DNA of 64,000 bases, taken from contig NZ_JAKRWF010000003.1 of the NCBI RefSeq assembly GCF_022352215.1, forward strand, positions 353,854 through 417,853. Reading direction: 5' to 3'. Below are positions 901 to 40,889 of the stretch, one piece after another (within the stretch, counting starts at the first letter, position 1; every line of letters starts with the position of its first letter). A model generated the notes under the pieces. That model ran no database searches, was not told where the DNA came from, and saw only the letters and a list, made by a program, of their open reading frames with translations. The DNA comes from Flavihumibacter cheonanensis (GTDB lineage: Bacteria; Bacteroidota; Bacteroidia; Chitinophagales; Chitinophagaceae). The translations under genes and the position numbers were made by a program.

Positions 901-930
901 GAAGTGAAAGGTGAAAGGTGAAAAGTGAAA
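901..930 (+). repeat. purine-only heptamer tract after icd
   Basis: About four tandem 7-nt units (GAAGTGA, AAGGTGA, AAGGTGA, AAAGTGA), almost all purine on the + strand, starting at the base after the icd stop and running into the terminator hairpin. It belongs to the dispersed purine-tract family also found near 2.6, 16.4, 16.6, 23.8, 24.0 and 35.0 kb. Confidence 0.7.
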
Positions 931-1240: not shown

Positions 1241-1603
1241 TCAGCCGCCCATTTTTTTGGTTTTGGCATATCCGTTTTTAAGCAACCAGGCCAGTACTTT
1301 CTCACGCTGGTCTCCCTGCACCAGGATTTCACCATCTTTAGCGGAGCCACCAGTCCCACAATAGTTTTTCAATTGTTTTCCCAGGCTTTCCAAATCCTCT
1401 TCCGTACCAATGAAACCCGTAACCACCGTTACAGCCTTTCCTCCCCGCTGTTTGGTTTCAAGCCGAACCCGCAATACCTGTTGCGAAGGAGCCAACGTTT
1501 CCTGGGAATGCTGCTCCTCCTCCATTCTGAAATTTGGATCTGTCGAATACACAAACCCGAACTTATCACCTTTATGTTTCTTACTCATAATTTTACTTTT
1601 CAT
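1241..1603 (-). CDS. SUI1-family translation initiation factor (YciH-like)
   Basis: A 120-residue protein whose C-terminal part (about 40-118) is an eIF1/SUI1 fold: RLETKQRGGKAVTVVTGF, then LGKQLKNYCGTGGSAKDGEI and the QGDQREKVLAWLLKNGY end typical of bacterial YciH. The family acts on start-codon selection at the 30S subunit; the bacterial role is poorly defined. The N-terminus carries a basic stretch. Two starts are possible: 1603 (MKSKIMSKK) or the in-frame ATG at 1588 (MSKKHKG), which resembles many relatives. It lies 10 bp downstream of nadC in the same direction. Confidence 0.85.
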   Translation of the reverse strand: MKSKIMSKKHKGDKFGFVYSTDPNFRMEEEQHSQETLAPSQQVLRVRLETKQRGGKAVTVVTGFIGTEEDLESLGKQLKNYCGTGGSAKDGEILVQGDQREKVLAWLLKNGYAKTKKMGG

Positions 1604-1613
1604 GTCTGACGTC

Positions 1614-2501: not shown

Positions 2502-2530
2502 TCACCCGTCCGGTGGCACCGGACGGGTGA
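2502..2530. promoter_or_regulatory. 29-bp perfect palindrome upstream of nadC
   Basis: The arms TCACCCGTCCGGTG (2502-2515) and CACCGGACGGGTGA (2517-2530) are exact reverse complements around one central base. It overlaps the expected -33 region of the nadC promoter. It could be an operator for a dimeric regulator, or a hairpin in read-through RNA from the upstream DUF4783 gene, whose own terminator is at 2548-2573. The symmetry is seen; the function is inferred. Confidence 0.5.
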
Positions 2531-2619: not shown

Positions 2620-2674
2620 TACTTCATACTTCATACTTCATACTTCTCACTTCATACTTCCATTCATTCTTCCA
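2620..2674 (-). repeat. heptamer tract overlapping the 3' end of the DUF4783 gene
   Basis: On the minus strand the tract runs ATGGAAGAATGA, then ATGGAAG, then repeated TATGAAG heptamers (four clean copies plus variants such as TGAAGTG). It is purine-rich on the coding strand of DUF4783, and the stop codon of that gene lies inside it. Same family as the tract at 901-930. Confidence 0.7.
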
Positions 2675-3053
2675 TAAACCGCATTTCCTGCAAATATGCC
2701 TTTTCTCCTTTCTGTTTTAGAAACAGGGTTGTGCGATAACTGCCGTTATTTGTCTGTAGCACACCGATCAGGAAATTGGAGCCATTGTTTTCTCCATGAT
2801 GCTTCAATTCAAAGGTTTTTACTCCTCCGGTAGAAATAAAAAAATCTTTAATGACCATCACCGCCTGACTTCTGCTATAATTATCACTTTTTTCAGGCAG
2901 CGTGATGTCTACCCTGGAATCAAAATACCGTGATAACTGTGTAGCATCACCCGTTTTCAATGCCCCAAGAACGGAATCCAGTTCTGCACCCGTTTTAAAA
3001 GCGGATACCAGAATCATGGTACTCAATAGGATAATTGTATAAAATGCTTTCAT
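2664..3053 (-). CDS. DUF4783 family exported protein
   Basis: A 129-residue protein with an N-terminal signal peptide (MKAFYTIILLSTMILVSAF). An NTF2-like body follows (LDSVLGALKTGDATQLSRYF, VDITLPEKSDNYSRSQA, FLIGVLQTNNGSYRTTLFLK). This pattern is typical of DUF4783, a Bacteroidota family usually found beside nadC, as here. Function unknown; probably periplasmic. The last residues (FMEE) and the stop are encoded inside the purine repeat tract, so the natural C-terminus may have been altered by the repeat. Confidence 0.8.
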   Translation of the reverse strand: MKAFYTIILLSTMILVSAFKTGAELDSVLGALKTGDATQLSRYFDSRVDITLPEKSDNYSRSQAVMVIKDFFISTGGVKTFELKHHGENNGSNFLIGVLQTNNGSYRTTLFLKQKGEKAYLQEMRFMEE

Positions 3054-3219: not shown

Positions 3220-4743
3220 ATGAAAAAAGCAATCCTTATAATCATGGATGGATGGGGCCTTGGTAAAGTAGCTTCCAGTGATGCCATCCAGCACGCTCAT
3301 GTACCATTTGTCTCCGGTTTATATAAAAAATACCCAAACACCACAGTGATTACCTGCGGAGAAGCGGTCGGACTTCCAGATGGCCAGATGGGCAATAGTG
3401 AAGTTGGCCACCTCAATCTGGGTGCAGGAAGAATCGTATACCAGGAGTTGCAACGAATTAATGTAGCCATCCGGGATGGGCAGTTTCAACAGAACCCTAC
3501 CCTGCATAATGCCATCCGGTATGCTAAGGAAAACAACAAACCACTGCACCTGCTGGGTCTGGTAAGTGATGGAGGCGTACATTCTCACACCAATCACCTC
3601 AAAGCAATTGTGAGTGTTTGCAAGCAGGAAGGACTTGAAAATGTTTTTATTCATGCTTTCACTGACGGGCGCGATACCGACCCCAAAAGTGGTCTTTCCT
3701 ACCTTACCGGTCTGCAGGCACACCTGGATCAGACTACAGGCAAAATTGCAACTGTTAGTGGAAGATACTATGCAATGGACCGCGATAAACGGTGGGAGCG
3801 GGTGAAACTAGCCTATGATGCACTGGTTAGAGGAATCGGGGAAACTGCAACAAATGCCCTTTCTGCTGTTCAGGCTTCCTATGACAATAATATTACCGAT
3901 GAATTTTTAAAGCCGACTATCATCACGAATGAAAAAGGTGCACCACTGGCAACCATTCATTCCGGTGATGCCGTAATCTGTTTCAATTTCCGGACCGATC
4001 GATGCCGCGAAATCACGGAAGCATTAACACAAAAGAACTTCCCGGATCATGGTATGCATACCCTGCAACTGCATTATACTACCATGACGGAATACGATAA
4101 AACCTTTCAAAATGTACAGGTTATTTTCGAAACGGATAATCTCAACAATACAATTGGCGAGGTACTGGCAGCACATGGTAAAAAGCAGATCCGTATCGCT
4201 GAAACAGAAAAATATCCACACGTTACTTTTTTCTTTAGTGGCGGTCGTGAACTTCCATTTGAAGGAGAGTCGCGCATCCTGAAACCGTCACCAAAAGTTG
4301 CTACATATGATTTGCAACCGGAAATGAGTGCATTTGACCTTACAGATGCCCTGCTCCCTGAGATTCAGGCAGAATCCCCTGATTTTATTTGTCTCAATTA
4401 TGCCAATGCGGATATGGTTGGTCATACCGGAATATTTCCGGCAGCCATCAAAGCTGTTGAAACGGTTGATAAATGTGTGGAGCGGGTTGTTACCGCAGGG
4501 CTGGAACATGGCTATACTATTTTCCTCACAGCCGACCATGGCAATGCTGATTATATGGTGAATGAAGATGGAAGTCCGAATACCGCCCATACCCTGAACC
4601 CAGTGCCACTTTTCATCATTGATAAGGAATGGAGAGGTGAAGTTAGTCCGGGCAAACTGGGTGATATCGCCCCCACCATACTGACCTTTATGGGGCTTCC
4701 TGTGCCTGCTGAAATGACTGGAAACTGCCTGGCAAAACCCTAA
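3220..4743 (+). CDS. gpmI: 2,3-bisphosphoglycerate-independent phosphoglycerate mutase
   Basis: Interconverts 3- and 2-phosphoglycerate in glycolysis and gluconeogenesis; cytoplasmic, Mn-dependent. The 507 residues are full length. Visible are the metal-binding DGWGLG at the N-terminus, the catalytic-serine motif GNSEVGHLNLGAGR, FTDGRDTDPKSG, CFNFRTDR, HVTFFFSGG, the second metal set ADMVGHTG and LTADHGNADYMV, and HTLNPVPLFI near the C-terminus. It is the first of four closely spaced + strand genes: the haem_bd gene starts 10 bp later, then a small gene and a TonB receptor. Co-transcription with these is likely, although the functions are not obviously linked. Confidence 0.95.
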   Translation: MKKAILIIMDGWGLGKVASSDAIQHAHVPFVSGLYKKYPNTTVITCGEAVGLPDGQMGNSEVGHLNLGAGRIVYQELQRINVAIRDGQFQQNPTLHNAIRYAKENNKPLHLLGLVSDGGVHSHTNHLKAIVSVCKQEGLENVFIHAFTDGRDTDPKSGLSYLTGLQAHLDQTTGKIATVSGRYYAMDRDKRWERVKLAYDALVRGIGETATNALSAVQASYDNNITDEFLKPTIITNEKGAPLATIHSGDAVICFNFRTDRCREITEALTQKNFPDHGMHTLQLHYTTMTEYDKTFQNVQVIFETDNLNNTIGEVLAAHGKKQIRIAETEKYPHVTFFFSGGRELPFEGESRILKPSPKVATYDLQPEMSAFDLTDALLPEIQAESPDFICLNYANADMVGHTGIFPAAIKAVETVDKCVERVVTAGLEHGYTIFLTADHGNADYMVNEDGSPNTAHTLNPVPLFIIDKEWRGEVSPGKLGDIAPTILTFMGLPVPAEMTGNCLAKP

Positions 4744-16252: not shown

Positions 16253-16263
16253 TAAAAAACAAA

Positions 16264-16294
16264 GGGGCCAGGATAGACATCCAGCCCCGTTTTT
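16264..16294 (+). terminator. terminator after the kinase/receiver pair
   Basis: GGGGC and GCCCC arms, extended inward by GGAT/ATCC with a small bulge, are followed by GTTTTT. It sits 11 bp beyond the receiver stop. It is the first of three hairpins in the 361-bp gap before gldN, which has no convincing gene. Confidence 0.7.
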
Positions 16295-16393
16295 AAAATC
16301 CAATATCCTATGAAAAACCGAGTTAAAGGTAGATGAATTTTTATTTCTTCCAATACCCGGATAGCGGTATTTTTTCCATTTTCGACGAATGGC

Positions 16394-16437
16394 ATGGAAG
16401 AGGAGACAAAGGAGACAGGGAACAAAGGAGGAAAGGG
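16394..16437 (+). repeat. purine tract in the receiver-gldN gap
   Basis: A run of almost pure A/G on the + strand. Its first 22 bases (16394-16415) are identical to 23803-23824, and both begin ATGGAAGAGGAGAC. It belongs to the dispersed tract family. It is mirrored by a pyrimidine tract at 16569-16612 on the other side of two hairpins. Confidence 0.7.
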
Positions 16438-16450
16438 AATCGCTGATAAA

Positions 16451-16492
16451 AAATAAAAGTGGGTACCAGAGGTTCGGTGCCCACTTTTATTT
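16451..16492. terminator. hairpin, bidirectional terminator candidate
   Basis: AAATAAAAGTGGG (16451-16463) pairs perfectly with CCCACTTTTATTT (16480-16492), and ACC/GGT can add inner pairs. A/T-rich outer arms give a T run on either strand, as expected between convergent genes. Confidence 0.75.
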
Positions 16493-16510
16493 GAAAAAGG
16501 CAGTAACAGC

Positions 16511-16556
16511 ATAAAATAGGAAAGGAGAACGTTGTCGTTCTCCTTTCCTATTTTAT
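16511..16556. terminator. 21-bp perfect hairpin downstream of gldN
   Basis: Arms 16511-16531 and 16536-16556 are exact reverse complements (outer ATAAAATAGG, inner GGAGAACG) with a 4-nt TTGT loop. T-rich ends occur on both strands. It is the most stable structure in the gap and the likely end point of the gldKLMN transcript. Confidence 0.85.
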
Positions 16557-16568
16557 ATTTTACAATTA

Positions 16569-16612
16569 CTCCTTCTTCCCTCTTCCATTCTCCCCTCTTC
16601 CTTTCCTCCAGT
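16569..16612 (-). repeat. purine tract directly after the gldN stop (minus strand)
   Basis: C/T-only on the + strand, hence purine-only on the gldN coding strand; it includes ATGGAAGAGGG. It starts right after the gldN stop codon. Together with 16394-16437 it flanks the two hairpins as an imperfect inverted pair. Confidence 0.7.
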
Positions 16613-16613
16613 C

Positions 16614-17648
16614 TTAGTATGACCAGAGATCCTGTTCGTAATTGAAAATCTTTTCTTTGATATTCTCACCCTCGAGCAAACGAAGGATGGGATCTTTGAT
16701 GAAAGCTTCAATGAACTGATCACCCGGGTTATCCAACGTGGATTTGATAATCCGACTGGCGAACATCCGGCTTTCGAACAATTCTTCCCAGCTCATCCGG
16801 GCACCGAAGTTTTTACCATTGTAAGCTTCATATCGGGCCAGCAATGGGCGCATATCAGGGTAGTAAACCCAGAATAGCGGAGTAACTGCACGGAAAGACC
16901 CATCGGAATTTTTAATGGTCTTGAGCGGAGCGATACCCAGAATACGAACATGCAAACGGGAAGACTCTTTATCAAATACCACTTCTTCCTTCACCCAGTA
17001 TTTTTCAACTTCTTCAGGATTGAATTCATTCACAATCACACTGTCCTTCAAAATACCAAGTGATCCGTCAGGGTCTTTGGACCAATCAGGAACCTGGATG
17101 GTTAAAGGTTCGCCAACCAATTGCTTGGTAATTTCTTTCAATGTGATAGGGGTAGTAAACCGATCATCTACCGGGTTGAAAGCAGTGATCTCACCACTTT
17201 TCAGGGAGCCCAGTAAAATATTGATGAAACGCTGGTTACCATTATCGTCATCCGCTTTATACATGAAGGGCAGGTTCATTTTTTCATGAACATCGATTTC
17301 CCTCCACAAACGCTGGCGATACACCGCATCATCTTCCCGGATATGTTCATATGACAGGGGAATACGCTCCTTCACAAGGTTACGCTCTATGGCGTTATCA
17401 TTCCTGAGTGATTTACGCGTTTCGCCTAGTTTCAATTCCGGTTCCACTGGTGCTGCCGGCGTAGTGTCAACGGCTGGTGCCTGCGTCAACGCGGCGGCAT
17501 TACCAGTATTGTTTTTGTTGGTGCTGGTTTTCTTGGTGCTGGTTCGCTTGGAGGAGGTCCGGCTCGGCTTACGCTGTGCCTGTACACCTTCTGCACTGAA
17601 GCCAATCACAGCTACCAGCAAACAAAATTGGATGATACGGTTTTTCAT
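16614..17648 (-). CDS. gldN: T9SS ring/secretion protein GldN
   Basis: A 344-residue periplasmic component of the type IX secretion and gliding machinery that works with GldK at the outer-membrane ring. Signal peptide about 1-24 (VGFSAEGVQAQ-like end AEGVQAQ). A low-complexity Ser/Thr/Lys/Pro segment spans about 25-70 (RTSSKRTSTKKTSTNKN). The conserved body has RIPLSYEHIREDDAVYRQRL, WREIDVHEKMNLPFMY, VWVYYPDMR-like FWVYYPDMRP and the WEELFESRMFASRIIKS end region. It is the last gene of gldK-L-M-N, 23 bp after gldM. The terminal hairpin and repeat follow. Confidence 0.93.
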   Translation of the reverse strand: MKNRIIQFCLLVAVIGFSAEGVQAQRKPSRTSSKRTSTKKTSTNKNNTGNAAALTQAPAVDTTPAAPVEPELKLGETRKSLRNDNAIERNLVKERIPLSYEHIREDDAVYRQRLWREIDVHEKMNLPFMYKADDDNGNQRFINILLGSLKSGEITAFNPVDDRFTTPITLKEITKQLVGEPLTIQVPDWSKDPDGSLGILKDSVIVNEFNPEEVEKYWVKEEVVFDKESSRLHVRILGIAPLKTIKNSDGSFRAVTPLFWVYYPDMRPLLARYEAYNGKNFGARMSWEELFESRMFASRIIKSTLDNPGDQFIEAFIKDPILRLLEGENIKEKIFNYEQDLWSY

Positions 17649-17671
17649 TTTATCCTGTTTTAGTCAATTGC

Positions 17672-19204
17672 TTATTTCAAGTTAAAGAAGATACCTGGAA
17701 GTTCACGTACGCGGCCATCCGGACCTTTTACACGAATCTGATCAAAAAACACGCTAGAACCTGGTGTAGCTTTGTTAATAATTGCAGCAGCGCCACCATT
17801 CCAACGGGGACCATCATTAGCAGATTGCTGATAGGTTTGGAATGCTCCACCATTAGCACCTACTACATAACTGATCACATCGTATTTAGCGTCAAATTCA
17901 GAATCCATGAGTTTAGCCAACAAACCACCCATAGCTTTGAACTGGGCTGCAGGCATTGCGCCACCTTTGCTGGCACCCACCATTGCAGTAGGATCAGGCA
18001 GCGACTTCACCCGCATTGGGAAAGAGCTGGTTTTACCTTCAACAGTGATTTTGATTTCAGCAGGCCCCATTTTGCTCGGCTTGATGATGTAACGGTCGCC
18101 ACCTGCAGGAGTAATTGCACCACCAGTGAAGCTTACGTTCATCTTTTCTTTACCGGCAGAACCAGCAGATACCATTACCGGGTTGTCAACTCCAATGTAA
18201 ACCACGTTCATTTTCTCCAGGAATACAGAGGCTCCGGAAGGAACACCCACTGTGTACTTGATAGTCTTATTCAGAACAGCATCCGTTCCATCTGGCTTCT
18301 TGAATTTAACTTCAACGTTTACGCTTCTCTCACCTGCTCCACTCACTGTGGTTTTGTACACTGCAGTTCCTTCAGCACCTAATGCAACAGGAGCACCATT
18401 GATTGATACAGAGGGTTTTGCTGCTTTTGAGAAGGCGCCAACACCGGCAGTGATTTCCAATTCCTGACCTGGCATCAGGTAGGTAGAGTTTGTTCCGGCA
18501 AAAGCCTGGAATTCGTCGAAGATAACTTCTACCTCACCGATTTCTTTATGACAGAAATCAACGATCTGGGCTTCAGAATTCTTCACATCATTCTGGAACT
18601 TACTTAGAATAGTAAGTGCTGCGATGGTTGGAGTCATGCGGAAATAGGCAGATTTCCAGTCGTTCTGTACAGTGCTTCCGGTCTGAGACTTAGGAATGCT
18701 CAGATCAAGCGGCAGCGACTTTTCGAAGTTCGCCTTCTGCTCTGGAACGATTTCCAGCATCTGCTTACGGAAATCGGTCAGTTTTTTCAGTAACTCATCG
18801 CCTTTGGCACCTTCTACCAGCATACGGGTAGAGGCATCGAGGTTATCGATAGAGAACTTTTCTTCAGGAGTACCGATGTTTTCTCCCTTGGATTCTTTTT
18901 TCAGTTCTGTCTTCAGATCATCGAGATACTTAGACATTTCTGCAGACAGCTTTTGTGCCTGTTGCGCCTTCGGATACCAGATGGCTGCTTTTTCAGCAGT
19001 TTCCGGCTTCTTCATTTTGGCTTCGAACGACTCGTAAGTCGTTTTATTTTTCTCATCCACTACCGAGTTGGCAGTACGGATGCTTTCGTCAACGGTTTTG
19101 AATGCGTTCAGGATTTCAGATGATACGTTCAATGCAAGTAGCGCGGTAAGCACCAAATACATCATGTTAATCATCTTCTGCCTGGGCTCTTTAGGTAAGG
19201 CCAT
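17672..19204 (-). CDS. gldM: T9SS motor/periplasmic shaft protein GldM
   Basis: A 510-residue protein. One N-terminal membrane helix (about 11-33, MINMMYLVLTALLALNVSSE) is preceded by PKEPRQKM, with Arg8 in the conserved position. A helical bundle (about 40-220) follows, then beta-rich periplasmic domains (about 225-510; PGQELEITAGVGAFSKA, VEVKFKKPDGTDAVL). In structural work on the family, a GldM dimer threads the GldL pentamer and transmits proton-driven rotation to the outer-membrane complex. The length and order after gldL are as expected. A 68-bp spacer separates it from gldL. Confidence 0.95.
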   Translation of the reverse strand: MALPKEPRQKMINMMYLVLTALLALNVSSEILNAFKTVDESIRTANSVVDEKNKTTYESFEAKMKKPETAEKAAIWYPKAQQAQKLSAEMSKYLDDLKTELKKESKGENIGTPEEKFSIDNLDASTRMLVEGAKGDELLKKLTDFRKQMLEIVPEQKANFEKSLPLDLSIPKSQTGSTVQNDWKSAYFRMTPTIAALTILSKFQNDVKNSEAQIVDFCHKEIGEVEVIFDEFQAFAGTNSTYLMPGQELEITAGVGAFSKAAKPSVSINGAPVALGAEGTAVYKTTVSGAGERSVNVEVKFKKPDGTDAVLNKTIKYTVGVPSGASVFLEKMNVVYIGVDNPVMVSAGSAGKEKMNVSFTGGAITPAGGDRYIIKPSKMGPAEIKITVEGKTSSFPMRVKSLPDPTAMVGASKGGAMPAAQFKAMGGLLAKLMDSEFDAKYDVISYVVGANGGAFQTYQQSANDGPRWNGGAAAIINKATPGSSVFFDQIRVKGPDGRVRELPGIFFNLK

Positions 19205-19272
19205 GGATCTGGGATTTAAATGTTGTCAATCTAGTTTTTCACAGTTTCAATAAAGGGTACGATCAACCTGGC

Positions 19273-20040
19273 TTACGCGCGACCTTGCATGGCGTTCAGC
19301 ATGTTACCATAAATCTGGTTGAGGTTGCTGAGGTTTTTCGCCAGTGCTGCGATTTGATCCTGTGTTTTCTTAGCATCATCCACACTTCCCTGCATAGCTT
19401 CGGAAGCCTGGGCCAGATTACCATAGAACTTATTCATCGCTTTCAGGTGGTTGTTCGTATCCTGGAGTTCCAGTTCATAGATTGTATTCAGAGATCCCAG
19501 GTTCTTGGTCAGGGTCTGTACCTGTGTATGGAACTGTTTGGTGCTTTCAGATGCTTCGTTGAAAACCGCCATGGTTGTGGCGCTCTTCTGGTAAGCTTCC
19601 TTCATTTGTCCGAGTGCACCTGCAGCTTCTTTAGTTTTAGATGCATAATCATTGGTAGCAGCTACCACATCAGATACATCTTTCATTTGATTAACGGTAG
19701 TTCCCAGTTTGTTGAAACCTTCGCTCAGTTTTTTCAGGTTGGTTGGAGTGATATCAGCTTCCTGCATCATTTTATCGAGGTTGTTCAGGGCAGGGTTGCC
19801 AGCCGGACTGGTAGACAGTTTCGGCAGAGCTTCAGCCAGCGCAGCCATTTCACCACCGGGAGGCGGTAAGAATGCGTATACGATAAAGATCAGGGCTTCC
19901 GTCAGAAGACCAACGGTCAACATAATGTCGGCAAAAGATAGGTGTAGGATTTTTGCCCATGCTCCGAAGATTACCACCGCAGCGCCCACGCATACGAAGA
20001 TATTCACGAGTTTGTCAGTAGATTTTGATGCACCAGCCAT
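19273..20040 (-). CDS. gldL: T9SS motor stator protein GldL
   Basis: A 255-residue protein. Two membrane helices (about 12-32 and 38-60) carry the conserved intramembrane Glu48 in VGLLTEALIF, the residue implicated in proton flow in characterised GldL. After LPPPGGE comes a long helical cytoplasmic region (about 70-255) with MKDVSDVVAATNDYASK and the C-terminal NLNQIYGNMLNAMQGR motif. It pairs with GldM. It lies 140 bp downstream of gldK; no independent TAnnTTTG box is evident in that spacer. Confidence 0.95.
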   Translation of the reverse strand: MAGASKSTDKLVNIFVCVGAAVVIFGAWAKILHLSFADIMLTVGLLTEALIFIVYAFLPPPGGEMAALAEALPKLSTSPAGNPALNNLDKMMQEADITPTNLKKLSEGFNKLGTTVNQMKDVSDVVAATNDYASKTKEAAGALGQMKEAYQKSATTMAVFNEASESTKQFHTQVQTLTKNLGSLNTIYELELQDTNNHLKAMNKFYGNLAQASEAMQGSVDDAKKTQDQIAALAKNLSNLNQIYGNMLNAMQGRA

Positions 20041-20180
20041 AGTTGTTAATTTTTGAGTTTGAATAAGGGTTTAGATACTTGTTTGATATAGATATTAGAT
20101 TTTAGATAAAAGAGTTCCAGTTCGATTTTTCAATCAAATAATAACTAGTAAGATGTTGTCTTTAGAAATTTGCTATACGC

Positions 20181-21476
20181 TTATTTTTTGCCTTTGCCCT
20201 GTGTAGGTGGAAGATCGATTACAGAGCGGAAACCGATATACGATTTAGCCGTATCCTGGTATTCGTAAGAGCGGGTTCCGGTTTGCAGGAAATAACCAAC
20301 GTCTTTCCAGCTACCACCACGTAATACCTTACGTTTCATGCGGGGAGGATCAGAATCCTTCGCATTATAACGGATATCCGGGTTCATATCATGCTGGAAA
20401 TTGTAACCACCTTCATAGTAAAGAGAAGAGGTCCATTCTGCTACGTTACCGGCCATATTATAAAGACCGAAATCGTTAGGCCAGTAAGCATCTGCGCGAA
20501 CAGTGTAGAAACCACCATCTTCCGGATAGTTACCACGGCCTGGCTTAAAGTTAGCCAGCAGACATCCTTTTTTATTTCTCAGATAGTAGTTACCCCAGGG
20601 GAACATTGATTGTGAGCGACCGCCACGGGCTGCATATTCCCATTCTGCTTCTGTAGGCAGGCGGAAATCAGACTCCTGAGCACGTTTTTTACTTTCCAGG
20701 AATGAGTTGAGATAATGCGTTCTCCACTCACAGAAAGCAGTAGCCTGTACCCAGCTTACACCCACCACCGGATAATTTCCAAATGCCGGATGAGAAAAAT
20801 AGCGCTTGGTCATTGGCTCATTATAGGAATAGGAGAAATCACGGATCCATACCAGCGTATCGGGATAGATGCGAACATCTTTTTTCACGATGAATTGAGA
20901 ACGGGGCTTACCAGCATTTTCACGCTTGGCAGCATCCTTATTATCGAATGTTTCAGAATGATATACCAATTTGGAAGCATCCAGTTCCTTTTTGCCGAAG
21001 ATTCGGTTTTCAGGAGAAAGAATCAACTGGTCGATCTTTTCAATGGTAGCTTTATCACCCCACTTGATGGTTTTTGCTTTTGCCCAGTCCACCTGGTCTA
21101 CCCCGTCAACATTCTTCACAAATCCCATCAGCTTGGCAGCTGTTGAATCCCGAACCCAGTTTACGAACTGGCGGTATTCGTTGTTGGTGATTTCAGTGGC
21201 ATCCATCCAGAAGCCATTAATGGATACCTGCTTATTACGGGCAGTGTATGCATAGTTGACATCTTCATCACTTGGACCCATGTGGAATGTCCCGGGTGGA
21301 ATGTACACCATTCCCGGAGGTTTTGGCATAGAGTACTTGTTGCCAGGCGCTACGCCGTGCAACTGACCATCGTTTGGTAATCCTCCCTTGTTGGAGTTTT
21401 TTCCAAACATTCCGCAGCTTGCCAACATAGATACGGCTGCAAGCGTGCACAACGTGGACAGGTTTTTCATTTTCAT
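20181..21476 (-). CDS. gldK: T9SS lipoprotein GldK (formylglycine-generating-enzyme fold)
   Basis: About 431 residues from the preferred start at 21476 (MKMKNLSTLC); an upstream in-frame ATG at 21518 adds 14 unconvincing residues. The lipoprotein signal ends at the Cys after SMLAS. The FGE-sulfatase (SUMF1-like) fold is marked by MVYIPPGTFHMGPSDED, ATEITNNEYRQFVNWV, VGVSWVQATAFCEWRT, RLPTEAEWEYAARGG, LYNMAGNVAEWTSS and VLRGGSWKD. GldK forms the outer-membrane-associated ring with GldN. It is not expected to be an enzyme. It is the first gene of the gldKLMN operon. A -7 box lies about 20 bp upstream. Confidence 0.93.
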   Translation of the reverse strand: MKMKNLSTLCTLAAVSMLASCGMFGKNSNKGGLPNDGQLHGVAPGNKYSMPKPPGMVYIPPGTFHMGPSDEDVNYAYTARNKQVSINGFWMDATEITNNEYRQFVNWVRDSTAAKLMGFVKNVDGVDQVDWAKAKTIKWGDKATIEKIDQLILSPENRIFGKKELDASKLVYHSETFDNKDAAKRENAGKPRSQFIVKKDVRIYPDTLVWIRDFSYSYNEPMTKRYFSHPAFGNYPVVGVSWVQATAFCEWRTHYLNSFLESKKRAQESDFRLPTEAEWEYAARGGRSQSMFPWGNYYLRNKKGCLLANFKPGRGNYPEDGGFYTVRADAYWPNDFGLYNMAGNVAEWTSSLYYEGGYNFQHDMNPDIRYNAKDSDPPRMKRKVLRGGSWKDVGYFLQTGTRSYEYQDTAKSYIGFRSVIDLPPTQGKGKK

Positions 21477-21495
21477 AATATTAAAGGGTAGTGGG

Positions 21496-21503
21496 CAAAT
21501 ATA
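21496..21503 (-). promoter_or_regulatory. -7 box of the gldK promoter
   Basis: The minus strand reads TATATTTG, an exact TAnnTTTG match, 19 bp upstream of the preferred gldK ATG. A TTGAC lies just upstream, but closer than the usual -33 spacing. The site supports 21476 over 21518 as the start, because the longer form would begin upstream of the promoter. Confidence 0.55.
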
Positions 21504-21659
21504 ATGTTTTGTCAACATCAGCTTCTTTTGTTTATAATTTACGTCAAGGAACTGATTTTGCTTGTTCCCGTGACAAATTTAACGGTCTATAAAAGGGGAT
21601 TATTGTTTTGCCCCCCAATAAAATCTTGCCAATTAACCTCGTTTTCAGTCCAAAATCAC

Positions 21660-23765
21660 CTACAATTGTTCCAAAAACCTGTCTACAGCGCTTTCTGGCC
21701 GAAGGCAGTTATAGCTTTGGCATAGATAGATTAGTGTATCAGGGGCGGAGGGCTTGTGACGCAAAAGCGGGTAAGCGGGATTTTCCCGGGTGGCGGATTG
21801 AAGTACTTTGTACGGAATAAAATTAGCCATAATTTCATTTCGTCGTACGTCTGCCTCCTCTCCCACTACCACTATTTCTGCACATCCATCTACCCAACCC
21901 ATTATTTCCATCGCCCAGCAACCAAATGAGCCCGGATATCGTACTGCTGAACCAGCCATCACACTTGTCATCGATGCCGACCTTCCAGACCAGTCAGACC
22001 GTTCAAAAATGATACCTAAGTACTTGATATTGAAGGCCATAACCGCATTCCCAGAGGGCTGGGCTCCGTCATACACTTCTCTTTTTCGCACGATTACATC
22101 TGTCTGTCGCTGGTTCGTATAGTAAAATAGCGGGCTGTCTTCCGAGCTAAAATCCCTGAATATAACTTCTGTTAATTTTTTTGCTTCTTCCAGTAATTCC
22201 GTTCTTCCCGTGATTTCCTGCAGATTTATCAAAGCCTGTACCAGATATGCATAATCATCCAAAAATCCGGGTATCTGTGCCTTCCCTAATTTATAGGTAT
22301 GCAGAATGTTGTTATCCGGTCCCGAAAAAACGCGTAACATCCAGGCCATATTTTTTTCCGCCAGCCAGCGATACCTTTCTTCTCCAGTGGCAGCAAACGC
22401 TTTTGAAAGAGCTGAATTCATCAGGGCATTCCAGCATACTAACTGCTTGTCATCCAATCCAGGACGGATTCTGCTTTTTCTTGCTTCCAGCAATCTCTGA
22501 CGGATTTCTTCCAGGCGCAGATTCAGCTTATCCTGATCCTGATCACAATATCCCATATCTAACAATTCCTGCCTCTTGCGCGATTTTGTTAAAATGTTAA
22601 TTCCTTCCCAATTCCCTTCATTAGTGATACCCAACCAGTCGCAGGCAAGGGCAGCATCCTTTCCCAGCAATTCCTCAACTTCCCCTTTCTCCCAAACATA
22701 AAATTTCCCTTCTTCTCCTTCCGAATCTGCATCCAAAGCGGAATAAAAACCAAACTCGGCAGACATTAGTTCCCGCTCCAGGAAATCAATTGTTTCCCGG
22801 ATGGTTTCAGCATATTCTGTTTTACCTGTTAACTGATATGCTTCTGACAATACCGAAACCAATAATGCCTGGTCATATAACATTTTCTCAAAATGCGGAA
22901 CAAGCCATTTATTATCTGTGGAATAGCGGGCAAAACCACCGCCTAGCTGGTCATAAATTCCCCCTTCAATCATTTTATCCAGGCTTAAAAGAGCCTGGCG
23001 TAAAGCGTCTTCGGCGGCTAATTCAAGGGCTCCCTCTTTCCAATGTATGCTTTCGTCCTTCCTCTTACTGGCAAAACGGGAAGATTTTTCCATAAAACGG
23101 GCAGCATACCGAAGAAGATAAGCAATAGAAAATGTCTGAGGGAATTTGGGGGCCCGACCAAATCCACCTTCGGTTTTATCAGCATTTTTTAAAAGTACCT
23201 GCGCCATCTGGGTGAGCTGTTCAGTATGAAAATCCGGACCCGAAGCGGCTCCCTGCCCGATCCTGTTAGCCTGCACCAAATGCTGGGTTAGATTTTCAGC
23301 CTGCTGCAAGAGTTCTCCTCGTCTCTCCTGCCAGGCTTTTGAAATAGCCAGAATCACGTCGGTCCAAGCAGGCATATTATGAAATGCTTGAGGAGGATAA
23401 TAAGTTCCTCCGTAAAACGGTCTGCCATCCGGTGTCAAAAAAACATTGAGAGGCCAACCACCCGAACCTGTCATGGAGGTCAGTGCATCCATATAAATAT
23501 GATCGATGTCCGGTCGTTCTTCACGGTCGACTTTGATGTTGATGAACCGGTCATTCATGAGAGCCGCCACTCCCGGATTTTCAAAACTTTCCCGCTCCAT
23601 TACATGGCACCAGTGACAGGCTGCGTAACCAATACTCACGAGGATAGGGCGGTCCAGTTTTTTGGCTGCCTCCAGCGCCTCTTCCCCCCATGGATACCAA
23701 TCCACCGGATTGTGAGCATGTTGTAATAGATACGGACTGCTTTCTTTTGCCAATCGATTTGCCAT
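21660..23765 (-). CDS. thioredoxin-domain protein of the YyaL/SPATA20 family (DUF255)
   Basis: A 701-residue protein. The N-terminal thioredoxin-like domain (about 1-165) has the family opening [20 protein letters not shown], a CxxC motif in [26 protein letters not shown] and [16 protein letters not shown]. An (alpha/alpha)6-barrel region like N-acylglucosamine 2-epimerases follows from about 200 ([47 protein letters not shown]). The family is widespread but its function is unsettled. It is a single minus-strand gene that begins 25 bp from a purine tract at 23790. Confidence 0.9.
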
Positions 23766-23789
23766 AAGTAACGGTTGAAGAACAAAGGT

Positions 23790-23861
23790 ATGGAAGAGGA
23801 GAATGGAAGAGGAGACAAAGGAGAAGGGAGAATGGAGGAATGGAAGATGGAGGAATGGGAG
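23790..23861 (+). repeat. purine tract upstream of the YyaL-family gene
   Basis: Tandem variants of ATGGAAGAGGAGA and ATGGAGGAATGGAAG, nearly all purine on the + strand. It contains the 22-nt block shared exactly with 16394-16415. With the opposite-polarity tract at 24001-24060 it flanks the terminator at 23947-23973. The 274-bp gap between the two genes holds only these elements. Confidence 0.75.
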
Positions 23862-23946
23862 ACCCCTGTACTTTACATCCCAATTCCTGGAAACTGAACC
23901 TTTTTTAACGGTAACAAATCATGAATACTGGCAGATCCATACCAAT

Positions 23947-23973
23947 AAAAAAAGGTACCGGACCTCCGGTACC
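23947..23973 (-). terminator. intrinsic terminator downstream of hemD
   Basis: On the minus strand, GGTACCGGA, a 2-nt centre and TCCGGTACC (23954-23973) are followed by seven T. The tight centre means the innermost pairs open to form the loop. It lies 67 bp past the hemD stop. Confidence 0.75.
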
Positions 23974-24000
23974 CACTTCTCTTATAATTTTTTAGTTGCC

Positions 24001-24060
24001 TTTCTTCCTTCCTCCCTCCTCCATTGCCCATCTTCCATATCACTTCCCCTCTCCCTTCAC
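24001..24060 (-). repeat. purine tract overlapping the 3' end of hemD
   Basis: Pyrimidine-rich on +, purine-rich on the hemD strand. It includes GGAAGAAAGG, ATGGAAGATGG and GGAGGAGGGAGG words. The last codons and the stop of hemD (24040) fall inside the tract, as at DUF4783. Confidence 0.7.
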
Positions 24061-24840
24061 TTTCTTCGCCAAAAACTGTTCCAGGGCCGCTACCATCGAA
24101 GGAGCCTGTGGCTGAGGTGCTTTAATATCCAGTGCCAAACCTGCCTCTTCTACCGCTTTTGAAGTGTTGCTACCAAACGCACCAATCAGCGTACCGTTCT
24201 GCTTAAAGCCTTCATAATTCAACAAGCTCTTTACACCACTTGGCGTAAAAAGACAAATGATATCATATTCATTAGACCCAAGAATAGGCTTCAGGTCATT
24301 GAAAATAGTGCGGTACATAAACGGAGTTGCAAATTCACATTTATGTGATTTCAGCCAGTTAACGATATCATTATCCTGCTGATTTTCAGAACAGGGATAT
24401 AAAAACTGCTCGTTTTCCTTATGCTTGTTTATAACATCAAACATGCTCTTGTTGGTACCATCTGCACCATAAAATACCTTCCGCTTGCGATAAAGAATAA
24501 ACTTTTGCAGATAAAGCGCTACCGCCTCTGTAATGCAGAAATACTTGGTATCCTGCGATACACTGACTTTCATTTCTTCGCAGATACGGAAGAAATGATC
24601 AATGGCATTTCGACTGGTGAAAATGACCGCTGAAAACTGTGCGATGTCAATTTTTTGTTTCCTGAAATCTTTAGCCGGAATTCCTTCCAGGCTGATAAAG
24701 GGATGAAAGTCTAAGGTCACGCCAAATTTCCTACCCAATTCAAAGTAAGGAGATTTGTCACTTTCAGGCCTCGGTTGGGTGATCAGGATTTTCTTGATTA
24801 CAGGAGCTCCAGCTCCCTTCTTAGCCTCGTTCTTTAGCAT
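24040..24840 (-). CDS. hemD: uroporphyrinogen-III synthase
   Basis: Cyclises and inverts ring D of hydroxymethylbilane to give uroporphyrinogen III in haem and corrin synthesis. The 266 residues show the two-lobe HemD pattern: KKILITQPRPESDKSPYFEL, IDIAQFSAVIFTSRNAIDHF, YFCITEAVALYLQKF, then the second lobe with YPCSENQQDND, YRTIFNDLKP, and DIICLFTPSGVKSLL with GAFGSNTSKAVEEAGL. Sequence conservation in this family is low, but these motifs and the DUF4271 neighbour are typical of Bacteroidota hemD. The C-terminal KVKGEGK comes from the purine tract. Confidence 0.85.
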   Translation of the reverse strand: MLKNEAKKGAGAPVIKKILITQPRPESDKSPYFELGRKFGVTLDFHPFISLEGIPAKDFRKQKIDIAQFSAVIFTSRNAIDHFFRICEEMKVSVSQDTKYFCITEAVALYLQKFILYRKRKVFYGADGTNKSMFDVINKHKENEQFLYPCSENQQDNDIVNWLKSHKCEFATPFMYRTIFNDLKPILGSNEYDIICLFTPSGVKSLLNYEGFKQNGTLIGAFGSNTSKAVEEAGLALDIKAPQPQAPSMVAALEQFLAKKVKGEGK

Positions 24841-34250: not shown

Positions 34251-35612
34251 TTAACTATGTTTTGCGCCCTTGCTGTTCCGAACCACCAGGAAATAAATTC
34301 CCAGGAAGACAGCAAATACCGCCAGTCCGGTTAATGCAAGAACAGGTGTGTTGATCGCAATACTGATTCCTACAAAGGTATAGGCAATCATAAAAACAAG
34401 AGGCAAAACCGGATACCATTTCATGGTATAAATACCGGTTCCATCCAGGTGTTTGGTTCGTTTGCGAAGAATAAAAATGGTTGCTGCAGATGTTGCCATC
34501 CCAATTGAATCCAGGAAAATCGTAAAGCCCAGAATTTTCTCAAAAGTGTTGGCAAAAAACAGGACGATGATACAAATAGCAGCAAACACAGTTAGGCTAA
34601 CGGTTAGTACCCCACGCTTTTCATCGGCTTTGGCAAACATACCGGGGAGGATACCATCTTTACTCATGGCATACATCACCCTGGGATTACTCAATAGCAA
34701 CACATTTACATAAGCCAGTACAGCCAGGAAAAGCAGGAGCGTGAAAATGGTTTTACCAGTTGGACCAAACATTTTTTCCGCCACTACTGCTGCAATACCC
34801 CTGGTGGATTTTAATGCTTCAAAACCGATACTGTGTACATAAGCCATCTGCACCAGCAAATACAGTCCGATGATCATGAGAATACCGATCACAATTCCTC
34901 TCGGCAGGTTTTTGCGCGCATCTTTTACTTCTTCTCCAAAATTGATGGTTTGCTGGTACCCACCGTAGGTGAAAGAAACCGCAATAAGAGCTACGCCAAA
35001 GGAGTAGATGAGGGACATGGAAGAGGGAGGAAGGGAAGAGGGGGGAAGGGAAGATGGAGGAAGGGAAGATGGGTCAGCCCCGGGAAAAAAGAGGGCACCA
35101 ATCAGGACAAGCACCATTAGAATTTTGATGAGCATGAGAATATTCTGCGTTTGTGAACTCATGCGAAGTCCGGCCAGGTTGACAAAATAAAATACCAGGA
35201 TGGCCGACATAGCAATCAGGGATTTCACCAGGTCGGAAGCGGGTTCATCAAAAATTAACTGCGACAGGTATTCACTGCCTATTAAAGCCACTCCGGATAA
35301 AGAAGCTGCATTAGAAATAAGAATAATACAATTGATTGCAAAAGCAACAGAGGGATGATAACAGGCCGCAAAGATTTTGTAATACCCACCTGTAACAGGA
35401 TACCTTGAGCCAATCTCCGCATAAGTGAGTGCACCGCAAAGCGCGATAATGCCTCCGGCGATCCAGGCCGAAAAATAAATCGTGGGCGTAAGCGAGGCGC
35501 TGGCAGCATCGGTTGCAGTTCTGAATATACCCATACCGATAACAAGACCAACTACAATCATAGTAAGATCAAACAATCTTAACTGATTGTTTTTGCCTGT
35601 ATTGTTTTGCAT
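34251..35612 (-). CDS. APC-family amino-acid permease with in-frame SSLPP repeat
   Basis: About 453 residues from ATG 35612 (MQNNTGKNNQ); the frame extends to 35696 but would run past the divergent receptor start. It has twelve membrane helices of the APC superfamily: FDLTMIVVGLVIGMGIFR as helix 1 with the GxG-type unwound region, ALCGALTYAEIGSRYPVTGG, SFTYGGYQQTINFGEEVKDA and KNLPRGIVIGILMIIGLYLL. Between helices 5 and 6, about residues 178-200, an insert reads three SSLPP units and then SSM. It is encoded by the purine/pyrimidine tract at 35011-35077 in frame. The reading frame is otherwise intact. Substrate unknown. Confidence 0.88.
   Translation of the reverse strand: MQNNTGKNNQLRLFDLTMIVVGLVIGMGIFRTATDAASASLTPTIYFSAWIAGGIIALCGALTYAEIGSRYPVTGGYYKIFAACYHPSVAFAINCIILISNAASLSGVALIGSEYLSQLIFDEPASDLVKSLIAMSAILVFYFVNLAGLRMSSQTQNILMLIKILMVLVLIGALFFPGADPSSLPPSSLPPSSLPPSSMSLIYSFGVALIAVSFTYGGYQQTINFGEEVKDARKNLPRGIVIGILMIIGLYLLVQMAYVHSIGFEALKSTRGIAAVVAEKMFGPTGKTIFTLLLFLAVLAYVNVLLLSNPRVMYAMSKDGILPGMFAKADEKRGVLTVSLTVFAAICIIVLFFANTFEKILGFTIFLDSIGMATSAATIFILRKRTKHLDGTGIYTMKWYPVLPLVFMIAYTFVGISIAINTPVLALTGLAVFAVFLGIYFLVVRNSKGAKHS
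35011..35077 (+). repeat. 15-nt tandem purine repeat inside the permease gene
   Basis: Four imperfect 15-nt units such as AGGGAAGATGGAGGA, purine-only on +, pyrimidine-only on the coding strand. Because the unit is a multiple of three, it adds SSLPP pentapeptides without breaking the frame. It shares ATGGAAGAGG and GGAAGATGG words with the intergenic tracts near 16.4 and 23.8 kb. Confidence 0.8.
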
Positions 35613-35667
35613 GTTAGTTCCGATCTTTACCCAATATAATTCCAAAAGCCAAGCCCACAAATAAAAA

Positions 35668-37695
35668 ATGAACCTCTTATTTGTTTTCGTTGCCACCGGA
35701 TTTCAGCTTCCTCTGTCCCCTTCTACAGATACCCTGCCCAACAGACAACTGGATTCGGTTATCGTGCAGGGCTTTGTACAAAGAAGTCCGCTTGCTGCAA
35801 CACCTGCCGCAGTATCCATTGCCGGAGCTGCTGAATGGAACCGTTTTTCTCCGGCAAGTTCAGTAGCTGCCCTGAATACGCTTCCCGGTGTAAGAATGGA
35901 AGAGCGTTCACCGGGCAGTTATCGTATAGCCATCCGCGGTAGTTCACTTCGCTCTCCGTTTGGTGTAAGAAATGTGCGTTTTTATTATGAACAGTTTCCT
36001 ATAACAGATCCGGGCGGAAACACCTATCTGAACCTGTTTGCGCCAACTGCTATTGAGCAGATGGAAATACTAAGGGGACCGGTAGCTTCTGTTTATGGAT
36101 CCGGATCAGGGGGCGCCCTGTTGGCAACTGGCTCCAGACCATCCGATAGCAAATCACCAGTTCGACTAAGTGTTATGGGAGGTAGTTATGGTCTCTTCCA
36201 GCTAGATGGTCAGCTACTCACCGGAAATGAACAACATTTCAACCGGGTACAAGTGCATCACCAGCAATCACAGGGATACCGCAATCAAAGTGCACTTCGC
36301 AGAAATTTTCTGAGCTGGCATAACAAAAGACAGGTATCGGATAAATACACCATCGGCTCACTGGTACTTTATAGTGATCTGCAGTATGAAACACCGGGCG
36401 GACTCACATTGGCACAATACAATGCCAACCCCAAACAAGCGCGGCCTGCAGGTGGCCCCTTCCCTTCGGCAGAAACTGCAAAAGCTGCTTTTTATCAACA
36501 ATCTTTTTATGGCGGACTGTATCAGCAATACATGCCCACTACCAGGCTCAGCATGGAAGCTACTGTATATGGAATGTATAACCGGATTACCAATCCTGCC
36601 ATACGGAACTTTGAAAGAAGAACTGAACCCTCTTTTGGAACCCGAGCATTAATCGCTTATACTGCACCGTTATCCAACGGAACTATCACATTCACAGCAG
36701 GCGGGGAGTGGCAGAAAGGATATTACCAGATCAATGTTTTCGGCAATCGTGGCGGAGAACAGGATACCCTGCAAACTTCTGATGCACTCACACCAGGTAA
36801 TGCCCTGGTCTTTGGTCAGGCGCAATGGAAACCGGATGCCAACTGGGAAATCAATGCCGGGTTAAGCTGGAATAACAATACGATCCGCATCATACGTGAA
36901 TCAGTAGTACCCAATTATCGGTTCAACACCGGCCAGCAGGCAGAATGGGCGCCGCGTATTTCTATCTCAAGAAAACTAGGATCCGTTCTGGTTTATGGGC
37001 TGGCAGCCAGAGGTTTTTCTCCTCCCACCAGTTCCGAACTGCTGCCTTCCACCAGTGTAATCAATACCTCTTTAAAGGCCGAAGGCGGATGGAATTTTGA
37101 ACTGGGTATGCGTGGCAGATTTGCAAAACAACGGTTATGGTTAGATGCTAATATTTTCCACTTCCAGTTAAATGATGCCATCGTGCAGAGAAGAGATGCA
37201 AGCGGGGCGGACTTTTTCACCAATGCTGGCAGTACCAGGCAATGGGGAATTGAAATTGCTTCCCGGTACCAGGCACTCAGGCATCCATTTGGTTTAAGGT
37301 GGCAGCCCTGGATCAGTTATACCTTCCATCCTTTTACCTATAAGGAATTTCGTCAAGTGGAACAGGATTTCAGCGGCAAACGTATTCCGGGTATCGCAAG
37401 GCAAACAGTGGCAGCCGGGTTGGATCTGTACCTGCTGATGCTGCAACTTCATCTTACCTACCAGTATGTGGATCCGATATGGCTGAATGATGCCAATACC
37501 GCTAAGGCAAATGCCTACCAATTAGTTGGCTCCAGGCTGGAATCCCGCATTTTTAAGCGCCTCAGCATATTTGCCGGGGCAGATAATTTGCTAAATCAAC
37601 GGTACAGCCTGGGTAATGATATCAATGCAATTGGTGGCCGTTATTTCAATGCTGCTGCTGGCCGAAACTATTTTGCGGGCATTCGGCTCCAGTAA
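35668..37695 (+). CDS. TonB-dependent outer-membrane receptor, substrate unknown
   Basis: A 675-residue receptor. It has a short signal-like N-terminus (MNLLFVFVATGFQLPLS) and a TonB-box-like region (RQLDSVIVQGFVQRSPL). The plug spans about 45-150 (NTLPGVRMEERSPGSYRIAI, RGSSLRSPFGVRNVRFYYEQ, ILRGPVASVYGSGSGG) and the barrel continues to residue 675 (FAGIRLQ). There is no N-terminal signalling or SusC-type extension. It is divergent from the permease across 55 bp. It precedes the cobalamin riboswitch, so it is not controlled by it. Plug features resemble iron-complex receptors, but the ligand cannot be deduced. Confidence 0.85.
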   Translation: MNLLFVFVATGFQLPLSPSTDTLPNRQLDSVIVQGFVQRSPLAATPAAVSIAGAAEWNRFSPASSVAALNTLPGVRMEERSPGSYRIAIRGSSLRSPFGVRNVRFYYEQFPITDPGGNTYLNLFAPTAIEQMEILRGPVASVYGSGSGGALLATGSRPSDSKSPVRLSVMGGSYGLFQLDGQLLTGNEQHFNRVQVHHQQSQGYRNQSALRRNFLSWHNKRQVSDKYTIGSLVLYSDLQYETPGGLTLAQYNANPKQARPAGGPFPSAETAKAAFYQQSFYGGLYQQYMPTTRLSMEATVYGMYNRITNPAIRNFERRTEPSFGTRALIAYTAPLSNGTITFTAGGEWQKGYYQINVFGNRGGEQDTLQTSDALTPGNALVFGQAQWKPDANWEINAGLSWNNNTIRIIRESVVPNYRFNTGQQAEWAPRISISRKLGSVLVYGLAARGFSPPTSSELLPSTSVINTSLKAEGGWNFELGMRGRFAKQRLWLDANIFHFQLNDAIVQRRDASGADFFTNAGSTRQWGIEIASRYQALRHPFGLRWQPWISYTFHPFTYKEFRQVEQDFSGKRIPGIARQTVAAGLDLYLLMLQLHLTYQYVDPIWLNDANTAKANAYQLVGSRLESRIFKRLSIFAGADNLLNQRYSLGNDINAIGGRYFNAAAGRNYFAGIRLQ

Positions 37696-37721
37696 TGAAA
37701 ATGCCTATATTCGCGCCGTAA

Positions 37722-37923
37722 TCGGTTCCTGTTAACAAATCAACTGTTAACAGGATTAAAAGGGAAGTCCGGTTGATCCCGGCGCTATCCCCGTAGCTGT
37801 AATGTTATCAGGATACTTGTATCCTGCTGTCAATCCATAACCACTGTCCGCCTGCACGTAAGGGTGAACGGGAAGGGGGTTTACAGAAAACGAGCCAGAA
37901 GACCTGCCGCTTACAGGAAACCA
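37722..37923 (+). promoter_or_regulatory. cobalamin (AdoCbl-type) riboswitch
   Basis: Conserved core elements are AAAAGGGAA, then CCGGCGCTATCCCCGTAGCT, a variable stem (ATACTTGTAT) and the B12 box in GAGCCAGAAGACCTGCC (37892-37908). P1 pairs GGTTCCTGTTAA near 37724 with TTACAGGAAACC near 37911-37922. A TATATTCG (one mismatch to TAnnTTTG) lies at 37706-37713, suitably placed as -7 box. The leader continues about 107 bases to the receptor ATG at 38031. It would repress the receptor when cobalamin is plentiful. The stretch 37696-38030 holds no other gene. Confidence 0.92.
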
Positions 37924-38030
37924 TATTCCGCTTTCGGGAGAAAAGCAGGGATATAAAAGGCCGGGTACCAGGTCGTTTATATTTCTACCATCCTTTTCCG
38001 GAAGCAGTCACGTTAATCTTTTTCACCAAC

Positions 38031-40851: not shown

Positions 40852-40889
40852 GGGTGCGAAAACTTCTCACGTGAGAAAATTTTGTACCC
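40852..40889. promoter_or_regulatory. interrupted palindrome between the NarL regulator and the PAS kinase
   Basis: The core TTCTCACGTGAGAA (40864-40877) is a perfect 14-bp palindrome centred on CACGTG. It extends to 38 bp (GGGT at the left end, ACCC at the right) with 15 of 19 positions symmetric. It lies 49 bp before the kinase ATG and no + strand gene ends upstream, so an operator is likelier than a terminator, although a T-rich stretch follows. The 296-bp gap holds no gene I can support. Confidence 0.5.

Follow-up and report, generated by a model that had tools for sequence, protein, structure and literature searches.

The purine tracts scattered through a 64-kb window (the whole stretch of DNA that was analysed, G000:C175:353854-417853) from a freshwater Flavihumibacter close to F. 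fluminis belong to a dispersed family of short-unit tandem arrays. These arrays lie mostly at gene 3′ ends, where they abut or contain the stop codon and carry their purines on the mRNA strand, and those that form mirrored pairs run purine first and pyrimidine second. Related species keep most of the sites that we compared and change the repeat unit, at three loci in both arms of a pair. Taken jointly, the sequence patterns suggest a family whose orientation may be under selection and whose paired form may act as a bidirectional terminator or 3′-end stem, a reading to which we give about an even chance. Dispersed heptamer repeats of this geometry are already known; what is new here are dialects of the repeat without a G3 quadruplex motif (four G3 runs), stop codons that fall in register with the repeat, and paired arms that change jointly.

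The genome that contains the window, G000, comprises 4.84 Mb in 241 contigs and is one of 15 Flavihumibacter genomes compared, in which G004 is F. fluminis; nucleotide identity over the window region is 91% to G004, 84% to G008 and 76% to both G014 and G002. Units in the family are 7, 9 or about 15 nt long. Heptamer units in G000 are GTGAGAC, GTGAAAG, TGAAGTA and GAATTAT, while the 15-mer unit GGAAGAGGGAGGAAT has a 7+8 build and GGAGACAAA is a further word. An earlier note, made from the letters of the window, had suggested looking for A/G runs throughout the genome, and the family is indeed present elsewhere: a 724-kb sample of G000 (the window plus 33 evenly spaced 20-kb stretches) holds 30 tracts scoring at least 28, versus none in five order-4 simulations. 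With the tract at 23777-23862 as query, at least 54 places in G000 match at E <= 10 and at least 44 at E <= 1e-4 (best 40 of 114 candidates scored), and a GTGAGAC array matches at least 47 places at E <= 1 (best 40 of 85 candidates scored). The most regular array, about 12 copies of GACGTGA at L063 3970-4055, is closely followed by a plus-strand tRNA-Leu gene (4059-4141) and does not lie at a stop codon.

Position and polarity were counted in a larger sample of 74 stretches (1.524 Mb of G000), with genes predicted by our own hexamer-based open reading frame (ORF) caller, whose start positions are uncertain, and with arrays taken to adjoin a 3′ end or a start under 25-nt limits unless stated otherwise. 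Tandem Repeats Finder reports many arrays of period 7 and 14, and 101 of the 154 arrays or tracts called are not mostly coding. We kept 88 arrays in 69 intergenic spaces, 53 of them heptamer arrays and 35 of the 15-mer class. Left out were 53 mostly coding tracts, 12 intergenic tracts with too few family words (at least three of which resemble family members by eye) and one at the end of a stretch; among the rows retained, L047 10863 and L241 3179 do not resemble family members.

By neighbour, 48 arrays adjoin one 3′ end only, 12 one start only, 16 both and 12 neither. In 45 of the 48 the mRNA strand carries the purines (p = 1.3e-10), by 15 to 1 in the 15-mer class and 30 to 2 among the heptamers, and other distance limits give 48 to 3, 41 to 3 and 32 to 5. 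The tie between gene 3′ ends and mRNA-strand purines that had been proposed from the window therefore extends to the family at large. Mirrored pairs are a general feature as well, all 19 running purine-then-pyrimidine and none reversed. Occupied spaces number 24 convergent, 39 co-directional and 6 divergent (sample spaces of at least 20 nt: 77, 464 and 180), and the co-directional ones, read along transcription, hold purine only in 24 cases, purine then pyrimidine in 12 and pyrimidine only in three. Single arrays occupy 44 of the 63 non-divergent spaces. Within non-divergent spaces 62 of 82 arrays lie between -45 and +12 nt of the stop, a region in which random placement within the same spaces puts a mean of 40 and a maximum of 53 (2000 trials). 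The tracts are thus neither random with respect to gene ends nor absent from the rest of the genome; with respect to hairpins they are random in part.

The relation to the stop codon is closer than mere proximity. TGA is the stop at 25 of 37 gene ends with heptamer arrays, versus 314 of 1204 other genes (p = 2.5e-7), and at 11 of 22 gene ends of the 15-mer class. In 19 of the 25 TGA genes with heptamer arrays a TGA or TCA lies exactly 7 nt from the stop, compared with 61 of 350 among all TGA genes (array genes included), so that the array itself supplies the stop as one of its units. Some gene ends are themselves written in array units, such as KKVRRQT*, KGMERKSIK* and RKVKGER*. The purine strand has stops in all three frames in 42 of the 53 heptamer arrays, and the opposite strand has none in 27 of the 53. 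Since stop codons are T-purine-purine, an array that ran into a gene would restore a stop through a purine strand with scattered T.

Within the window, all seven tracts of the earlier note were found where it had placed them. Five of these (16394, 16569, 23790, 24001 and 35011) are almost pure A/G, as had been claimed, and lie in segments with purine/pyrimidine run scores of 32 to 52, the maximum in 60 order-3 Markov simulations of the window being 27. That description does not suit the tracts at 901 and 2620, which are heptamer arrays with 87% and 76% purine, respectively, on the richer strand. The 22-nt block common to 16394-16415 and 23803-23824 is exact. Five of the seven (901, 2620, 16394, 16569 and 24001) do sit at or after gene 3′ ends with their purines on the mRNA strand; the exceptions are the 35011 tract and the tract at 23777-23862, which lies 11 nt before the start of gene 21660-23765 with its purine strand pointing away from that gene. 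The layout of purine tract, one or more hairpins and pyrimidine tract at 16.4 and 23.8 kb was also described correctly. The individual features are as follows.

904..930, plus strand: heptamer array GTGAAAG, directly 3′ of the isocitrate dehydrogenase TAG stop and 5′ of a terminator-like hairpin
2620..2675, minus strand: heptamer array TGAAGTA (mRNA strand) that runs over the stop (TGA) of the DUF4783 gene 2664-3053
16396..16439, plus strand: purine tract of 15-mer and GGAGACAAA words, in the convergent space between a response regulator gene and gldN
16452..16492, no strand assigned: hairpin between the tracts, found by eye; G004 has a related one, and none was seen in G008
16513..16554, no strand assigned: perfect purine-then-pyrimidine hairpin, found by eye, between the 16.4-kb tracts
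16569..16612, minus strand: mirrored tract with purines on the minus strand, adjoining the gldN stop 16614-16616
23777..23862, plus strand: purine tract upstream of the minus-strand gene 21660-23765 (DUF255/thioredoxin-like)
23954..23973, no strand assigned: terminator-like hairpin GGTACCGGACCTCCGGTACC, found by eye, between the 23.8-kb tracts; identical in G004
23999..24067, minus strand: mirrored tract that overlaps the hemD-like gene 24040-24840 at its 3′ end, including the TGA stop
34998..35077, plus strand: coding tract inside the minus-strand amino-acid permease gene 34251-35696, whose sense strand is the pyrimidine strand

Both stem sides of the hairpin at 16513-16554 differ among G000, G004, G005 and G008, as judged by eye and not from tool-counted pairs. 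Pairing of the flanking tracts across the terminators at 16.4 and 23.8 kb, as suggested earlier, is not supported as a specific interaction, since shuffled partners pair comparably: 31% and 9.5%, respectively, of 200 shuffled partners equal the observed duplex energy, and such pairing is generic.

The coding tract at 35011 specifies, in frame, a Ser/Pro-rich loop of the permease, PSSLPPSSLPPSSLPPSSM, and is purine-antisense. Insertion into a constant loop was considered and rejected, because the loop varies in length and sequence among Flavihumibacter species, with SSLPP or SSIPP units in G000, G004, G005 and G008. In G011 (L086) a palindrome like CACCCGTCCGGTG...CACCGGACGGGTG is written in frame into the same loop, and in G002 the permease gene was matched as two separate pieces (L094 and L095) with one stop inside the second, possibly a broken gene or an assembly error. 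Palindromes of the CACCCGTCCGGTG...CACCGGACGGGTG type form a second repeat family, seen at window 2503-2529, L049 15803-15834 and L052 5252-5283 as well as in L086.

Among spaces that could be matched between genomes, those bearing arrays in G000 also bear them in ten of 11 cases in G004, six of six in G008 and two of three in G014, and the single miss in G004 is a degraded array by eye. Two joined spaces have wrongly called gene ends (L065:9565 in G004 and window:23765 in G008), and the space at window 1603-1613 is flagged for an array in G004 and G008, not in G000. The units at these sites change. The array 3′ of the isocitrate dehydrogenase gene is built of GTGAAAG in G000 and GTGAGAC in G004, and the one 3′ of the DUF4783 gene is of the TGAAGTA type in G000 and G004 and of GAATTAG in G008, with no array in G014. 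A 15-mer query, to which other dialects are invisible, finds relatives at E <= 0.001 in G000, G004, G005, G008 and G014 among the 15 genomes; units elsewhere include GTGAATG in G011, AAGATTT and ATGGAGGG in G001, and GAAGTTA and AAAAAGT in G014.

Three genes, at L290, L303 and L318, were compared throughout the genus. In the species that bear arrays, L290 and L303 end in codons and stops made of array units. In L318 the array begins after a kept residue, and both arms are of the GTGAGAC type in G000 and of GTGAAAG in G004 and G008; the gene has a short single array in G014 and a TAA stop without an array in G002. The L290 gene of G008 uses a third dialect, GTGAATAAG, and its two arms have in common an inverted repeat that is exact over 26 nt. 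The idea of a 9-mer private to this gene (one match per strand in 118 kb) was abandoned, as our count of places at E <= 1e-4 puts the dialect at ten further positions in G008, at least about twenty in G014 (best 40 of 47 candidates scored) and two in G004; genome searches at the same threshold find it absent from G000 and G002. By eye, the ten G008 sites comprise six purine-then-pyrimidine pairs, three purine-sense arrays and one pointing away from a gene start, with none reversed. Both arms have changed together between species at the L318 gene, the L290 gene and L065:12022, where the spacer is still partly recognisable by eye, and at these three loci arms mostly match best within the same dialect.

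How such arrays arise and what they do can be considered together. Arrays could grow and change by replication slippage, and copying between arrays, as well as between the arms of one pair, could proceed by template switching or gene conversion; the turnover of units between species fits slippage plus copying, which had been listed earlier among possible modes of spread. Orientation, in this reading, would be held by selection. Bidirectional intrinsic terminators have a purine-rich first arm and a U/C-rich second arm and are favoured between convergent genes. A hairpin of purine-then-U/C-rich order would have the polarity needed by an intrinsic terminator on either strand, although, unlike ordinary bidirectional terminators, the stems here are tandem repeats whose units differ between species. 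A crude terminator finder, applied to intergenic spaces, detected a conventional terminator in none of five convergent and one of eight co-directional spaces holding pairs with a gap of at most 40 nt, and in five of six spaces of longer-gap pairs. The corresponding counts are 8 of 17 convergent and 3 of 27 co-directional for spaces with single arrays, and 26 of 42 and 74 of 307 for array-free spaces. The short-loop pairs thus probably act as bidirectional terminators or 3′-end stems, whereas single arrays are probably tolerated spacer DNA 3′ of the stop. Accordingly, the earlier suggestion that tracts extend terminator stems suits pairs with gaps of 40 nt or less, which mostly form long hairpins and have few other terminators, and fails at 16.4 and 23.8 kb, where the arms are not specifically complementary.

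Several results weigh against selected orientation and terminator action. Of 13 mirrored pairs that were folded, nine form long stems (-35 to -77 kcal/mol), but the energies have no shuffled control, and the remaining four are weak (-8 to -23 kcal/mol). Terminator-like sites are not enriched after tracts overall (12 of 59, versus 89 of 303 tract-free gene ends; p = 0.20). In six of 19 pairs the arms use unlike units and pair weakly, and hence arm pairing cannot be required everywhere. In a weak permutation test, arms resemble the partner at their site slightly more than they do arms from elsewhere, with 681 of 20000 permutations reaching the observed mean, and arms match their own partner better than the orthologue's arms at six of ten loci (p = 0.19; one locus has a misplaced G000 cut). 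Arrays adjoining starts lean weakly toward outward purines (8 outward, 4 inward; p = 0.39); another seven tracts that look like family members fall within the first tenth of a predicted gene, five of them antisense and two sense. The 15-mer arrays mostly lack all-frame stops, yet are equally polar, so that the stop-codon argument alone is insufficient and stop codons as the sole cause of polarity were rejected. Finally, the L290 C-terminus varies in array-free species too, five of nine of which share an IPLLSKFV-like form, so that its being "rewritten" is clearest at the DNA level.

Many of these points are what would be expected of neutral simple-sequence repeats, which arise by slippage or template switching, survive where sequence is indifferent, and form hairpins as a functionless by-product. 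We regard this explanation as a substantial competitor, albeit a clearly less probable one. In such a case, orientation would merely reflect the loss of arrays that cause read-through, false starts or C-rich RNA on which Rho can load. The constancy of sites while units and lengths change freely between species is easily accommodated, as are the variable C-termini, the pairs with unlike arms, the lack of overall terminator enrichment and the scarcity of arrays in G006 and in G012, with a single intergenic array per 140 kb in each. Less readily explained are the joint difference of both arms at three loci, the coincidence of short-gap pairs with missing terminators, and the recurrence of arrays in G004 at all but one of the array-bearing spaces compared.

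A more far-reaching proposal is that arrays are written at gene 3′ ends genome-wide by a dialect-specific process, which would root on TGA, overwrite the last codons, add purine-sense repeats, mirror them into a hairpin and rewrite both arms upon a change of dialect. We consider this unlikely, though it is a better candidate than those that follow. Alternatively, the purine-loop-pyrimidine structure might move whole as a palindromic mobile unit, like a bacterial interspersed mosaic element (BIME) or a miniature inverted-repeat transposable element (MITE). The many places occupied by the GTGAATAAG dialect in G008 and G014, often matching over both arms, and the lack of matches in G000 or G002 are suggestive of such movement. 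However, loops differ between sites, no common loop is evident by eye in the ten G008 sites, most arrays are single, and at L065:12022 a spacer that is still partly recognisable separates arms that vary from species to species, all of which makes a mobile unit improbable. Slightly less probable still is templated end addition, in which both 3′ ends of a break in intergenic DNA would acquire purine-rich repeats, in the manner of telomeres, before being joined. This would predict purine-strand arrays pointing outward from both sides, and the uniform order of the 19 pairs, the species-specific units and the occurrence of nearly abutting pairs (gaps of -2 to 4 nt), two of which combine unlike units, conform to it; the in-register TGA stops and the strong 3′-end bias, when 5′ ends show just 8 to 4, are left unexplained. 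Selection for G-quadruplex or triplex DNA, the least probable explanation, might draw on the loose G2 motif in 33 of 35 arrays of the 15-mer class, the G3 motif of the coding permease tract (outside the 88) and the G-quadruplexes that Xanthomonas repeats form in vitro (PMC4692102), but was rejected as a common cause, as was the triplex or H-DNA suggested earlier: none of the 88 intergenic arrays has a G3 motif, only 3 of 53 heptamer arrays have the G2 motif although both classes obey the same polarity rule, and mirror symmetry is clearly above shuffles in only one of the seven window tracts (the heptamer array at 2620).

The window contains other elements of possible regulatory interest. A short element on the minus strand at 16262-16333, CGGTTTTTCATAGGATATTGGATTTTAAAAACGGGGCTGGAT...ATCCTGGCCCC (reverse strand), is near-identical in the nine species whose gldN 3′ regions were compared, including array-free ones, and resembles a conserved small RNA gene with its own terminator; its only match in Rfam is MicC, far below the cut-off. 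The sole Rfam family above gathering score in the window is a cobalamin riboswitch at 37706-37925. At 40852-40889, before the start of gene 40938-43184, a palindrome followed by a T-rich run forms a hairpin that is kept in the five species compared and resembles a leader attenuator.

The short tandemly repeated repetitive (STRR) sequences of cyanobacteria are heptamers dispersed between genes, as are many of the arrays here. The closest documented parallels are the heptamer repeats GGGAATC of Xanthomonas and GGGGA(C/T)T of Nostoc, described in Rehm et al. 2015 (PMC4692102) as dispersed and mostly intergenic, a description that the tandem units of about 7 nt in Flavihumibacter share. According to that study, the G-rich strand is on the coding side where repeats overlap a stop or lie within 50 nt of it and on the non-coding side close upstream of ORFs, repeats are under-represented between divergent ORFs, two Xanthomonas genomes have 70 and 75 convergent inverted pairs, and repeats lie mostly between the same genes in two species with varying length and sequence; they are discussed there in terms of G-quadruplexes, with no role identified by the authors. 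Flavihumibacter arrays resemble those so described in having the rich strand on the coding side at stops and in their convergent inverted pairs. They differ in lacking the G3 motif, and thus quadruplexes do not explain the shared geometry; they differ further in having several dialects per genome, TGA in register with the units and joint arm change between species, and in their host being a member of the Bacteroidota.

Other parallels are more distant. TAACTGA heptamers of Beggiatoaceae, which also occur in some Bacteroidetes, carry all-frame stops in one orientation and are mostly intergenic, but those of the Guaymas genome lie mainly just 5′ of start codons according to MacGregor 2015 (PMC4679880), whereas the Flavihumibacter arrays lie mainly at stops. 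Borg tandem repeats, as described in PMC9879509, similarly turn over fast, have an A bias on the gene-bearing strand and in some cases begin inside the end of an ORF, but virtually all units are unique within one Borg, while Flavihumibacter units are common to many sites. Purine-biased short repeats thus occur elsewhere, a survey (PMC6749651) also naming a GATAGRA heptamer of Chloroflexus. In open-licence PubMed Central we found no paper on Flavihumibacter tandem repeats, nor any containing one of six repeat words of the family; for polypurine tracts with stop codons and terminators only two unrelated papers came up, and a four-term search on cyanobacterial short tandemly repeated heptamers gave none.

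Arrays that lack a G3 motif follow the same rule as the published heptamers, and therefore the rule needs another cause. In-register stops, joint arm change and gene ends written in array units make that cause testable, whether it is selected orientation, terminator hairpins or directed copying. Annotators should also be aware that an apparent C-terminal tail, ...KVKGER* for example, can derive from repeat DNA. If arrays were indeed written in a dialect-specific manner, sets of gene ends would share a species-specific signature, and the matching geometry of the Xanthomonas and Nostoc repeats would be due to a directed process of general occurrence and not to G-quadruplex function.

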